Of a stretch of DNA of 64,000 nucleotides, positions 24,384-41,020 are shown piece by piece (position 1 is the first letter of the stretch; every line of letters starts with the position of its first letter). The position numbers and the translations under genes are program-made. The notes under the pieces are model-generated. The model worked only from the letters and a program-made list of their open reading frames with translations, made no database searches and had not been told where the DNA came from. The stretch is from Nanobdellota archaeon (GTDB lineage Archaea > Aenigmatarchaeota > Aenigmatarchaeia > Aenigmatarchaeales > Aenigmatarchaeaceae): NCBI GenBank assembly GCA_018901755.1, contig JAHIDZ010000001.1:1-64000 (forward strand), given 5' to 3'.

Positions 24384-24442
24384 TACAACTAGTTATTACG
24401 ATGCTCCCATCGTCTAGTCCGGTCAAGGATCCGAGCCTTTCG

Positions 24443-24491
24443 AATTCTATTCGAAAGGATTGAGCCTGTTGGCTATGAATAGGATAAAGAC
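24443..24491 (+). other. tRNA-Glu canonical intron (37/38), 49 nt
   Basis: Complete hBHBh': exon helix CGAGC/GCTCG, 3' bulge AC|A, central helix CTTT/AAAG, 5' bulge CG|A, intron helix ATTCTATTC/GAATAGGAT. Confidence 0.92.
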
Positions 24492-24499
24492 AGCTCGTG

Positions 24500-24527
24500 A
24501 TGACACGAATTTTTGGTGTCACGAGAA
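24500..24527 (+). other. tRNA-Glu noncanonical intron in the variable loop, 28 nt
   Basis: Central helix CTCG/CGAG, 5' bulge TG|A, intron helix TGACAC/GTGTCA, 3' bulge AA|A; splicing yields a 4-nt variable loop TGAC. Confidence 0.85.
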
Positions 24528-24629
24528 ACTTGGGTTCAAATCCCAGTGGGAGCACCATGATTCTATTACCCCTTACGGATACGTGGAACGAATCGTAATA
24601 AGGATACTTCTATAAGTAAAAATTAAAGG

Positions 24630-36872: not shown

Positions 36873-36923
36873 ATATTTTAGAAATCCATTAAAATTAATG
36901 CGGGAGTCGCCCAGCTAGGTCAA

Positions 36924-36942
36924 ATGGATGAATCCAGACCAA
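36924..36942 (+). other. tRNA-Leu D-loop intron, 19 nt
   Basis: Central helix GGTC/GACC, bulges AA|A and AA|A, intron helix TGGA-TGAA-TCCA; removal restores a normal Leu D-loop GGTCAAAGGC. Confidence 0.85.
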
Positions 36943-36951
36943 AGGCGCAAG

Positions 36952-36986
36952 CGTCATTTTGAGTAATGATTCAATATGATTGCGAA
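36952..36986 (+). other. tRNA-Leu anticodon-stem intron (30/31), 35 nt
   Basis: Central helix CGCA/TGCG, bulges AG|C and AA|A, intron helix GTCATTTTG/CAATATGAT (one mismatch). Confidence 0.82.
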
Positions 36987-37073
36987 ACTCAAGATCTTGT
37001 CGCTTAGTGCGTTCGCAAGTTCAAATCTTGCCTCCCGCACCATTTAAATCTCTTTGTTATTATATAGTTTTTT

Positions 37074-37708: not shown

Positions 37709-38683
37709 ATGGCTAAGTACATATCAGCATGCATCTTAGGCGTATTCGTTATAGAAGATGATGTTATTATAGATAAAGTGTTATTCAAAAAAGACGCAGA
37801 AGAAATAGCTAAAAAATTAGTTGATATCGAAAATACTGAAGAATTCGCTAAAATGAAGAAAAAGTATGGCGGAGAATATAGACCATCTGATTTCTTAACT
37901 AATAATATTGCAAAGATTGCAGCTGAAACTAGATTTGTAAGAGATAGAGCAGAGTTAAATGAACTTATGTCTAAAATTAGCGTTGCTCAGACAAAGACAA
38001 AAATATCTAAATTGGAAAGAAGAGATAAATTGATTATTCAAACAGTTTCTGCATTAAATGATTTGGATAGGATTCTTAATTATATGTCCGAGCGTTTAAG
38101 AGAATGGTACGGATTGCACTATCCAGAGATTAGAGCTAAAGATTATGAAAAATTTGCAGACGAGTTAGCTAACTGTGGACGAAGAGAGAATTTCAAAGAT
38201 TTTACAACTTCAATGGGTATGGAATTAACTGATGATGATGTTAAGTTATTACAAAATTATGCACGGCAAACTAAGCAAATGTATGAACTGAAAAAACATA
38301 TAGTTAATTATCTTGAACGAGCAGTTCCAATTGAAGTGCCAAATATCAATGCTCTTTTAGGAAGTATACTTGCAGCAAGATTACTTGCTAATGCTGGTTC
38401 ACTTGAAAAGTTAGCAAAGATGCCTTCAAGCAAGATACAATTAATTGGCGCAGAGAAAGCATTGTTCAAATATCTTAAAGGACAGCAATCATCATCTCCT
38501 CGTTTTGGTATAATTTTTACTCATCCAGCAGTAAGTTCAGCGGCTAAAGAAAATCAGGGAAAAATAGCAAGACTATTATCATCTAAGTTAACATTGGCTG
38601 CAAAATGTGACTTCTATACTAAACGAGATATATCTAAAGAATTAAAGAAAGATTTTGAGGACAAAGTAAAAGAGGTTGTCTAA
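37709..38683 (+). CDS. nop5: Nop5/Nop56-58 C/D box RNP protein
   Basis: Nop domain: MPSSKIQLIGAEKALFKYLKG...RFGIIFTHPAVSSAAKENQGKIARLLSSKLTLAAKCDFY. Confidence 0.93.
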   Translation: MAKYISACILGVFVIEDDVIIDKVLFKKDAEEIAKKLVDIENTEEFAKMKKKYGGEYRPSDFLTNNIAKIAAETRFVRDRAELNELMSKISVAQTKTKISKLERRDKLIIQTVSALNDLDRILNYMSERLREWYGLHYPEIRAKDYEKFADELANCGRRENFKDFTTSMGMELTDDDVKLLQNYARQTKQMYELKKHIVNYLERAVPIEVPNINALLGSILAARLLANAGSLEKLAKMPSSKIQLIGAEKALFKYLKGQQSSSPRFGIIFTHPAVSSAAKENQGKIARLLSSKLTLAAKCDFYTKRDISKELKKDFEDKVKEVV

Positions 38684-39567
38684 TGTTTAAGCTAAGAATC
38701 ACTCCGGAATTTTCCGAGTGGTTTGGTGCATGGATCGGTGACGGTGACCATTCTAGTATAAGACGATTGGCACTTTCAAACCAAGTAGTAGAATTATTGC
38801 ATCTTCATATTAAGATTCTGACAGAATATTTTAACTTTCCTAGAGAAAGAATACTCGCAGAAGTTACGACAAGTAGTTTGGATGATAATCAAATTATAAG
38901 AGATCGATGGTCTAAATTACTTTTATTACCGCTTCAAAATATCAGGACTATAAACAGAAACCCAATCGCCAGAAAAGAATGCGCGAGAGTAATGGCAAAT
39001 AACGTTGAAATAACTAAATTTGTTAGAAACAATATATCTACAATAAGAAAAAGAATACTAAATTCTAATAATGAAATCATGTGTGCATATTTAATGGGAA
39101 TATTTGCGGCAGAAGGAAATGTTAGAACCGAAAAGCACCAAAAGCATGTTAGATTAGGTATGAAAACAATTGAAGATATAGATTTCGCAAAGCTTTTACT
39201 TGAGAAGATTGGAATAGAAACTAAATTGGCGATTAATACCAGTAATGACTGTTATGAACTTTCAATTTTCGGATATGAAAACTTATTGAAGTTTAGAGAT
39301 TTCGGCGGATTTGGAAAGCATGAGTCAAAAAATATTATCCTAAACAGACAGCTTTCTACATATGGAAAGTTTCCTTGGTCTTATAGATACCAATGTCTTG
39401 AAGCAGTTCTAAGAAATGTCAATACAATTACAAATTATGACGCAGTTAATATATTTGATATGAATTATCATAATGCAAAGTTGATGTTATCTAGATTCAG
39501 CAAACAGGGTAAGTTAAGTGTTGATAAAACAAATAAAACTTATACCTATAAATTAAAGGAGATTTGA
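38683..39567 (+). CDS. LAGLIDADG-type endonuclease/maturase-like protein with C-terminal HTH
   Basis: WFGAWIGDGDHSS and LMGIFAAEGNVR two-motif pattern; TAATG overlap with nop5. Confidence 0.8.
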   Translation: MFKLRITPEFSEWFGAWIGDGDHSSIRRLALSNQVVELLHLHIKILTEYFNFPRERILAEVTTSSLDDNQIIRDRWSKLLLLPLQNIRTINRNPIARKECARVMANNVEITKFVRNNISTIRKRILNSNNEIMCAYLMGIFAAEGNVRTEKHQKHVRLGMKTIEDIDFAKLLLEKIGIETKLAINTSNDCYELSIFGYENLLKFRDFGGFGKHESKNIILNRQLSTYGKFPWSYRYQCLEAVLRNVNTITNYDAVNIFDMNYHNAKLMLSRFSKQGKLSVDKTNKTYTYKLKEI

Positions 39568-40352
39568 TGTCTGATCAACAGATTAAAAAAGAATTAATTA
39601 TCATTGCAAAAGATATTGCTAATAAATTAAGAAGACTACCGGAAATAAAAGCGATTGCCATTTATGGCGGAGTAGCAGAAGGTTATGCAGACAATTATTC
39701 TGATATCGATATAATTTGTTATTGTACTAAAACACCAAGTATTCGAAAAAGAAAAGAAGTTCTAGGTGTCATAGATATTAGACAACTTCCGGGTCATCCA
39801 GACACCGACGAGTTTCAATATAAGAACAAATATCCTAACATATTTTATTGTGAATATGTTCCATGGCTTGGAAGATTAATTGAAGATGCGTGTCGAAGTA
39901 GAAAATTGCACGATTCGTTTCTTATTAGTCATCTTCTTAATACGGTATCTCTATACGATCCAAATAAACTTTTAACTGGATGGAAATCTAAACTTCAACC
40001 GATTCTAAAAACACACTTATCATCTATCAAAGAGGGTTCATTTTCAAAATTAAAACATGAGTTATTGCAAATTGATATTTCAATTAAAAGAAAAAATATG
40101 ATTCATATAAATCAAGAAATTTCAAAGATGATAGATTTATTTTTAATAGCTTTATATGCTTTGAATAATCAGCCATTCATGAGTTCCAAATGGAGTAAAG
40201 AAAGGATAAAAGTTTTTAAAATGAAACCAAAGAATTGTGTAAAGCATTTAGAGCAAATATCTTTACTTGGAAACAATACTAAAGATTTAAATAAAAAATT
40301 AAAATTATTAAAGAGTCTTATAAAAGACACGGACCCACTAATAACTAGGTAA
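39567..40352 (+). CDS. Nucleotidyltransferase-domain protein
   Basis: AIAIYGGVAEGYADNYSDIDIICYC; TGATG overlap with the LAGLIDADG gene. Confidence 0.78.
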   Translation: MSDQQIKKELIIIAKDIANKLRRLPEIKAIAIYGGVAEGYADNYSDIDIICYCTKTPSIRKRKEVLGVIDIRQLPGHPDTDEFQYKNKYPNIFYCEYVPWLGRLIEDACRSRKLHDSFLISHLLNTVSLYDPNKLLTGWKSKLQPILKTHLSSIKEGSFSKLKHELLQIDISIKRKNMIHINQEISKMIDLFLIALYALNNQPFMSSKWSKERIKVFKMKPKNCVKHLEQISLLGNNTKDLNKKLKLLKSLIKDTDPLITR

Positions 40353-40357
40353 ATGAT

Positions 40358-41020
40358 ATGAAAGAAATATTTCAAGGAATTTATAATATAAATCAAAAGA
40401 TTGCAACATTAAATTCTGCTCCAGGAACAAAACCATTCAATGAGATTCTTGTCACTATCGATGGTAAAGAATATAGACAGTGGGATCCGAATAGATCAAA
40501 AGCATCAGCAGCAATCGCTAAAGGAATTAAGCAATTTCCAATCGGAGAGGGCTGTGTTATACTTTATCTTGGTATTGCTCATGGGTTTACAGCTAGTTAC
40601 TTCTCAGATATAATCGGCCCAAATGGCGTGATTTATGGTGTTGAGTTTTCAGATCGTTGTTTCAACGAATTATTGAGTATAGTTTCCAGCAGAAGAAATA
40701 TAATTCCTATTCTAGCTGACGCAAGAAAGCCAGAAGATTTTGTAGAAAAAGTAATAGAGAAGGTTGACGTTGTTTATGTAGACATTGCTCAGCCAGATGC
40801 TACTGAGGTAGCGATAAGAAACTGTAAAAAATTCTTAAAACCACGAGGTTATTTAATGTTTACAATTAAGACACAATCAGTCGACGTAACTCAGTCTGTT
40901 AAATTGACAGTTAAACTTGAAATAGAAAAGATAGCTCAGGCCGGTTTTGAGATAATTGACTGGAAGATGCTTGATCCGTTTGAAGAATGCCACGGATTTG
41001 TTTTAGCTAGATTGAAGTAA
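40358..41020 (+). CDS. flpA: Fibrillarin-like rRNA/tRNA 2'-O-methyltransferase
   Basis: YRQWDPNRSKASAAIAKGI, VLYLGIAHGFTASYFSDIIGPNGVIYGVEFSDR, VDVVYVDIAQPDATEVAIRN. Confidence 0.93.
   Translation: MKEIFQGIYNINQKIATLNSAPGTKPFNEILVTIDGKEYRQWDPNRSKASAAIAKGIKQFPIGEGCVILYLGIAHGFTASYFSDIIGPNGVIYGVEFSDRCFNELLSIVSSRRNIIPILADARKPEDFVEKVIEKVDVVYVDIAQPDATEVAIRNCKKFLKPRGYLMFTIKTQSVDVTQSVKLTVKLEIEKIAQAGFEIIDWKMLDPFEECHGFVLARLK

Follow-up and report, generated by a model that had tools for sequence, protein, structure and literature searches.

A box C/D guide carried by the intron of archaeal tRNA-Trp is reportedly described in Clouet d'Orval (2001) and Singh (2004). This guide (sR50) is found in haloarchaea and other euryarchaea, where it lies in the canonical intron, and intron-borne C/D guides are established for this tRNA, with C34 and U39 as the targets of its C/D and C'/D' boxes (PMC7994747, PMC11408192). 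A C/D-like RNA was proposed in the intron of N. equitans elongator tRNA-Met (PMC3491384), which is another tRNA in a single species; a conserved self-targeting guide is not described there. In S. acidocaldarius, Um34 of tRNA-Gln(UUG) was observed by mass spectrometry and a C/D guide was predicted for it (PMC7668247); as far as that paper states, the guide is a separate RNA and not part of the tRNA's own intron. Archaeal C/D RNAs usually have two kink-turns. Their guides usually measure 10-12 nt, and the D'/C' kink-turn consensus is CUGA and RUGAUGA (PMC7994747).

The splicing of several introns from one pre-tRNA has also been studied. For nested introns of archaeal tRNAs, an order-dependent removal is described in PMC3978253, which cites Sugahara 2007 and Tocchini-Valentini 2009: several BHB introns are present and one BHB is completed only once another intron has left. 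In M. kandleri, introns are removed sequentially, after modification, and the D-loop intron of tRNA-Glu trails the canonical one (PMC3695527).

Here, a tRNA-Glu(UUC) gene of an uncultured DPANN archaeon, a member of Candidatus Aenigmatarchaeota, is analyzed. Like the tRNA-Trp intron, its canonical intron holds a box C/D-like element predicted to target the wobble base of its own tRNA. Unlike it, only one box pair is present, the predicted target is U34, the layout recurs in three tRNAs, and the introns can be as short as 28 nt. One kink-turn is seen instead of two, and the guides have 7-9 nt. No report of an intron-borne guide in tRNA-Glu, tRNA-Gln or tRNA-Lys was found in the open-licence literature, and the same held for searches on DPANN C/D sRNAs and tRNAs.

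The tRNA-Glu(UUC) gene and its two introns

The gene occupies positions 24403-24557 (+) of the window (the whole stretch of DNA analyzed, 64,000 nucleotides). Three exons of 40, 8 and 30 nt can be read from it, with a 49-nt intron at 37/38 and a 28-nt intron at 45/46:

24403..24442 (+), tRNA-Glu(UUC) exon 1, positions 1-37 (sequence; kept in relatives)
24443..24491 (+), intron 1, canonical site 37/38 (sequence and relatives; BHB pairs evaluated by folding energies)
24492..24499 (+), exon 2, positions 38-45, 8 nt (sequence)
24500..24527 (+), intron 2, site 45/46 (sequence and structure; covaries with the same-genus relative G001)
24528..24557 (+), exon 3 with encoded CCA at 24555-24557 (sequence)
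24432..24440 (+), 5' side of BHB1: anticodon stem CGAGC (24432-24436) and core CTTT (24437-24440) (sequence and structure)

When joined, the exons fold into a complete tRNA-Glu(UUC) with acceptor, anticodon and T stems and the encoded CCA. Exons and introns, including the 8-nt middle exon, lie exactly where a first-pass annotation had placed them, and the normal spliced product that it described was recovered. ARAGORN and Rfam gathering-score scans did not detect the gene, as expected for a gene with two introns. The annotation had named an intact, intronless tRNA-Glu(UUC) elsewhere, with this copy unexpressed, as evidence against its reading; no second copy was found in this genome (an 835-kb draft, 91% complete; all genomes compared are drafts), and the only other tRNA-Glu is the intronless CUC isoacceptor (C20:130087). 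The same gene is present in G001 (L033), with 94% identity over 155 nt and both introns at the same sites, so the two-intron gene is not a product of chance. The named relatives in which this tRNA layout occurs belong to Candidatus Aenigmatarchaeota; among them is STD1_92, whose tRNA-Glu gene matches that of G001. Sequence and comparison show that 24403-24557 is a functional tRNA-Glu(UUC) gene, whose two predicted BHB introns would be removed by the tRNA splicing endonuclease.

The BHB motifs proposed for both introns were borne out by the sequence and by the evaluated structures. The motif of intron 1 is complete: 24432-24436 pairs with 24493-24497, the core 24437-24440 with 24486-24489, and the intron helix is 24444-24452/24477-24485. 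Intron 2 has a core (24494-24497/24522-24525), both 3-nt bulges (24498-24500 and 24526-24528) and an inner helix (24501-24506/24516-24521). This helix covaries: TGACAC/GTGTCA here corresponds to TGACAT/ATGTCA in G001, a compensatory change from C-G to T-A. In the present gene the intron-2 hairpin can also pair in a slipped register, which competes with the bulged one; the minimum-energy fold of G001 has the bulged register. Intron 1 recurs throughout the phylum. Because the tRNA-Glu gene of the same-family genome G002 has intron 1 and lacks intron 2, intron 1 appears old, and intron 2 looks like an ordinary BHB intron of recent origin, so far confined to the genus.

The guide-like element of intron 1 and its conservation

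The exon segment CCTTTCG pairs with a second segment of intron 1 as well, which the first-pass annotation had overlooked. This segment belongs to a conserved motif of the K-turn type, with box-like elements after it:

24436..24442 (+), predicted guide target, C31-G37, with wobble U34 at 24439 (sequence)
24452..24458 (+), guide CGAAAGG, antisense to 24436-24442 (sequence comparison)
24460..24463 (+), box D'-like TTGA, one nucleotide after the guide (sequence)
24464..24473 (+), hairpin GCC-TGTT-GGC between the boxes (folding)
24474..24478 (+), box C'-like TATGA, which is GATGA or AATGA in most relatives (sequence)

The guide is the exact reverse complement of positions 31-37, and the pairing extends to 9 bp when 24450-24451 and the first bases of the intron are included. 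By the N+5 rule, the fifth base from TTGA pairs with U34. The boxes here are degenerate (UUGA and UAUGA against CUGA and RUGAUGA), whereas many tRNA-Gln introns have the canonical CUGA/GAUGA. The arrangement agrees with that of an archaeal D'/C' kink-turn and its antisense element, and a tandem G-A kink-turn at the D'/C' boxes is predicted from these motifs. Because one box pair is visible in each intron instead of the two of a C/D plus C'/D' RNA, the element is classed as a half-guide that works like C'/D', and not as a standard C/D sRNA. The Rfam gathering scan returned no C/D family at this locus. The guide repeat was considered as a part of the BHB, but this was rejected: the AAAG of the BHB core is a distinct segment at the 3' end of the intron, and it pairs with the same exon bases as the guide does. 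A box-C-like GTGATGA at 24497-24503 has no matching box D nearby and is taken as a coincidence of the variable loop.

The same layout is found in two other tRNAs of this genome. It reads CTAAAGC-T-CTGA-CATAA-GATGA in tRNA-Gln(UUG) (C11:76917-77024) and TAAAAGG-A-TAGA-GCAAATGC-GATGA in tRNA-Lys(UUU) (C4:42002-42111). Each guide is antisense to positions 31-37 of its own tRNA, and the fifth base upstream of the D-type box falls on U34 in all three tRNAs. The register of guide, 1 nt, D-like box and C-like box is absent from the other tRNAs listed for this genome, many of which have introns. The genome's own Glu(CUC), Gln(CUG) and Lys(CUU) genes have no intron at 37/38. Its tRNA-Lys(CUU) (L235, C20:93050-93400) carries an insert close to where the D arm begins.

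An exact-pattern scan of 156 genomes of the phylum recovered the layout in 27 genomes for Gln (20 genera), 25 for Glu (19 genera) and 14 for Lys; these counts are lower bounds, the patterns being strict, and one Lys match (G065) is unlikely to be a tRNA. Reversed-pattern controls in the same 156 genomes gave 0, 0 and 4 matches for Gln, Glu and Lys, respectively. Among 59 compiled distinct introns, the signature is present in 22/25 Glu, 20/22 Gln and 7/12 Lys introns, compared with shuffle means of 0.45, 0.23 and 0.2, although some loci were fetched with guide-containing patterns, which inflates these proportions. For loci found by BLAST alone, our own count is about 17/20 for Glu and about 13/15 for Gln, and all 12 Lys introns came from BLAST. 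A spacer of 1 nt between guide and box is overwhelmingly preferred in the Glu and Gln introns. The spacer between the D and C boxes varies widely: some introns have only a few nucleotides there (e.g., CTGATAAAAGATGA, or a loop of 5 nt), others a long stem that is complementary to itself (e.g., TTGAGCGTAAATTGAGTTTACGCTGTGA). Such variation would be expected if the pairing of the stem counts and its sequence does not. A chance antisense match is ruled out by the shuffles, the spacing and the reversed-pattern controls.

The guides also follow changes in their targets. In 61 target-guide pairs, compiled by hand from the recovered sequences, 392 of the 427 cells are Watson-Crick; exchanging guides between tRNAs lowers this to a mean of 314 and a maximum of 339. 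All 61 pairs have U-A at position 34, and position 36 is C-G, G-C, T-A or G-T. Covariation between target and guide is seen at positions 31, 33, 36 and 37, and two tRNA-Glu genes with C33 carry a compensating G in the guide. By this comparison, the putative guides track the anticodon of their own tRNA.

The element is restricted by wobble base. Among 43 distinct parsed U34 isoacceptor genes, 42 have the 37/38 intron and 37 the signature; among 18 parsed C34 isoacceptor genes, at least two of which are parsing errors, none has the signature in register. A shifted antisense element is seen in one C34 gene, tRNA-Lys(CUU) of G008 (L132), where N+5 would fall on C32. Exceptions lacking the element are an intronless Glu(UUC) gene (G024) and introns without a guide in the Glu gene of G052 and the Lys gene of G047; the guide is off register in G009, G012 and two f9 Lys genes. 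In the tRNA-Glu(UUC) genes of G005 (L037) and G007 (L038), an extra intron interrupts the anticodon loop near 34/35 (boundaries placed by eye), and the guide matches the joined exons of the split loop. An additional T-arm insert is present in the tRNA-Glu genes of several relatives (L041, L044, L053, L055 and L058).

A possible guide for 2'-O-methylation of U34

From these conservation patterns, the 37/38 introns of tRNA-Glu(UUC), tRNA-Gln(UUG) and tRNA-Lys(UUU) appear to be minimal C/D-type guides for Um34. For the present locus, it is quite probable that the functional tRNA-Glu(UUC) gene, with its two BHB introns, uses intron 1 as a minimal C'/D'-type guide for 2'-O-methylation of U34; we infer the guide role from conservation across the phylum. 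The intron guide would pair with C31-G37 of the same pre-tRNA, and the D'/C' pair would form a kink-turn predicted to bind L7Ae. L7Ae would then recruit Nop5 and fibrillarin, and the wobble U34 would be methylated on its ribose. Genes for both latter proteins lie in the window:

37709..38683 (+), Nop5 (PF01798), scaffold protein of the C/D RNP (profile match)
40358..41020 (+), fibrillarin (PF01269), C/D-guided 2'-O-methyltransferase (profile match)

Finally, the precursor would have to exchange the guide pairing for the BHB fold in order to be spliced. The guide could act in cis, or in trans after excision of the intron, which might then be circular. In the cis case methylation would naturally come before splicing, because BHB1 is incompatible with the guide fold, in which the anticodon is hidden. 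There is a precedent for the predicted product: Um34 is known on the same base of S. acidocaldarius tRNA-Gln(UUG).

Action in trans only, by an intron RNP that is excised and possibly circularized, is possible, although on balance we lean against it. The haloarchaeal tRNA-Trp intron works in trans (PMC7994747, PMC11408192), circular C/D RNAs and circular tRNA introns are known, and the guides of G005 and G007 fit only the joined exons of an anticodon loop that the extra intron splits. On the other hand, in most genes guide and target are separated by a short loop, often of 3-12 nt, within one hairpin, which favors intramolecular pairing, and very small introns (28 nt) would make poor free guides. 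A broader proposal is put forward tentatively, as something short of an expectation: the U34 tRNAs for Glu, Gln and Lys in Aenigmatarchaeota may retain the intron as a single-kink-turn cis guide, with mutually exclusive folds ordering methylation and splicing. In G005 and G007, cis action could follow only after the extra intron has left, giving an order of splicing, methylation and splicing.

Why archaea retain tRNA introns is a long-standing question, and a guide in intron 1 would give the canonical intron a selected function in three tRNAs across a phylum. Such a guide might be the smallest of the C/D type known. Guide and target would share one hairpin, and modification and splicing would compete for the same bases. 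Um34 would be predicted on tRNA-Glu(UUC), tRNA-Gln(UUG) and tRNA-Lys(UUU), and not, from this device, on their C34 partners.

Order of intron removal

Complete BHB1 and complete BHB2 exclude each other, as both need 24494-24497; these bases are unusable as the BHB2 core when complete BHB1 pairs them in the anticodon stem. This differs from the nested introns described in PMC3978253: here two adjacent introns need the same exon strand, and the second can already take up a stable relaxed form before the first has left. The folding check suggested in the first-pass annotation, on unspliced and intron-1-minus RNA, was carried out with hand-built structures scored in ViennaRNA at 37 C, which represent secondary structure alone, without protein, modification or tertiary contacts. 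For the unspliced RNA, complete BHB1 gives -39.4 kcal/mol versus -46.3 for the guide hairpin combined with relaxed BHB2. With intron 1 removed, complete BHB2 with its 6-bp exon helix, at the cost of the T stem, gives -25.6 kcal/mol, relaxed BHB2 with the T stem kept -29.3, and the reformed anticodon stem -32.1. The exon helix after removal of intron 1 has an ensemble probability of 3-10% over 37-65 C. The pair probability of the BHB2 core in the unspliced RNA at 37 C reaches 0.99 in this gene and 0.89 in G001.

These values divide the earlier claim that BHB2 forms only after the first splice. It holds for the complete hBHBh', given the shared bases; it is not supported for the core, which is already paired, and relaxed BHB2 already forms in the unspliced RNA. 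The exon-side helix invoked for it (TTCGAG/CTTGGG) turns out to be weak. Order-dependent splicing had also been called notable, but nested, ordered removal of archaeal tRNA introns is already on record (PMC3978253). The order claim is thus only partly supported: intron 1 may usually leave first, and the order need not be obligatory. An obligatory order would require an endonuclease that does not accept relaxed motifs.

One splicing endonuclease gene, EndA (PF01974), was found at C17:4991-5527 (L031). It encodes 178 aa and is closest to the alpha subunits of N. equitans and M. jannaschii. No second subunit was found in this genome or in the family members G001, G002, G005 and G006; G007 and several other families have two EndA genes, adjacent or fused. 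Lys156 of the M. jannaschii endonuclease has a catalytic role. In the alignment this position is Ala here, and the relatives read show RAK, RAR, RAN or RSS; the properties of Aenigmatarchaeota EndA are therefore not to be assumed. Single-subunit alpha4 endonucleases such as that of M. jannaschii are listed as narrow in specificity (PMC6379350), which, if it applied here, would favor ordered splicing.

The locus could be viewed as an ordinary multi-intron tRNA with strictly ordered splicing, in which complete BHB2 exists only across the new exon junction and intron 1 must go first. The shared 24494-24497, the known cases of nested splicing and the single detectable alpha-type EndA, which would demand complete motifs if narrow, agree with this view. 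We nevertheless regard it as unlikely: relaxed BHB2 is formed before any splicing; the weak exon helix is in competition with the T stem, and it has no covariation support, the exon sequences of G001 being identical; a second EndA subunit may be missed in a genome that is ~91% complete; and the conserved guide and boxes are left unexplained. Least probable, and by a good measure improbable, is a purely structural device in which the anticodon-intron pairing blocks or times splicing, like a eukaryotic anticodon-intron pair or an L7Ae-held switch, and guides no methylation: the guide fold is ~7 kcal/mol stabler than complete BHB1 in the unspliced RNA and excludes it, and L7Ae-type kink-turns need not recruit fibrillarin, but the constant 1-nt spacing by which U34 falls at N+5 in all three tRNAs, the restriction to U34 isoacceptors and the canonical CUGA/GAUGA in tRNA-Gln would go unexplained.

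Other features were seen in the window. A truncated tyrosine recombinase (PF00589; 24630-25289, +) starts 72 nt after the tRNA-Glu gene. Use of the gene as an integration site was considered and rejected, as the 3' end of the tRNA occurs only once in the window, although the recombinase follows the gene. A tRNA-like gene at 36900-37041 (+), with GCGGGAG...CTCCCGC-ACCA, was missed by ARAGORN and the Rfam gathering scan; it resembles a tRNA-Leu that has one insert in the D loop and another close to the anticodon. Between Nop5 and fibrillarin (38683-40352, +) lie two ORFs, one of LAGLIDADG_3 type that directly adjoins the stop codon of Nop5 and one for a nucleotidyltransferase.
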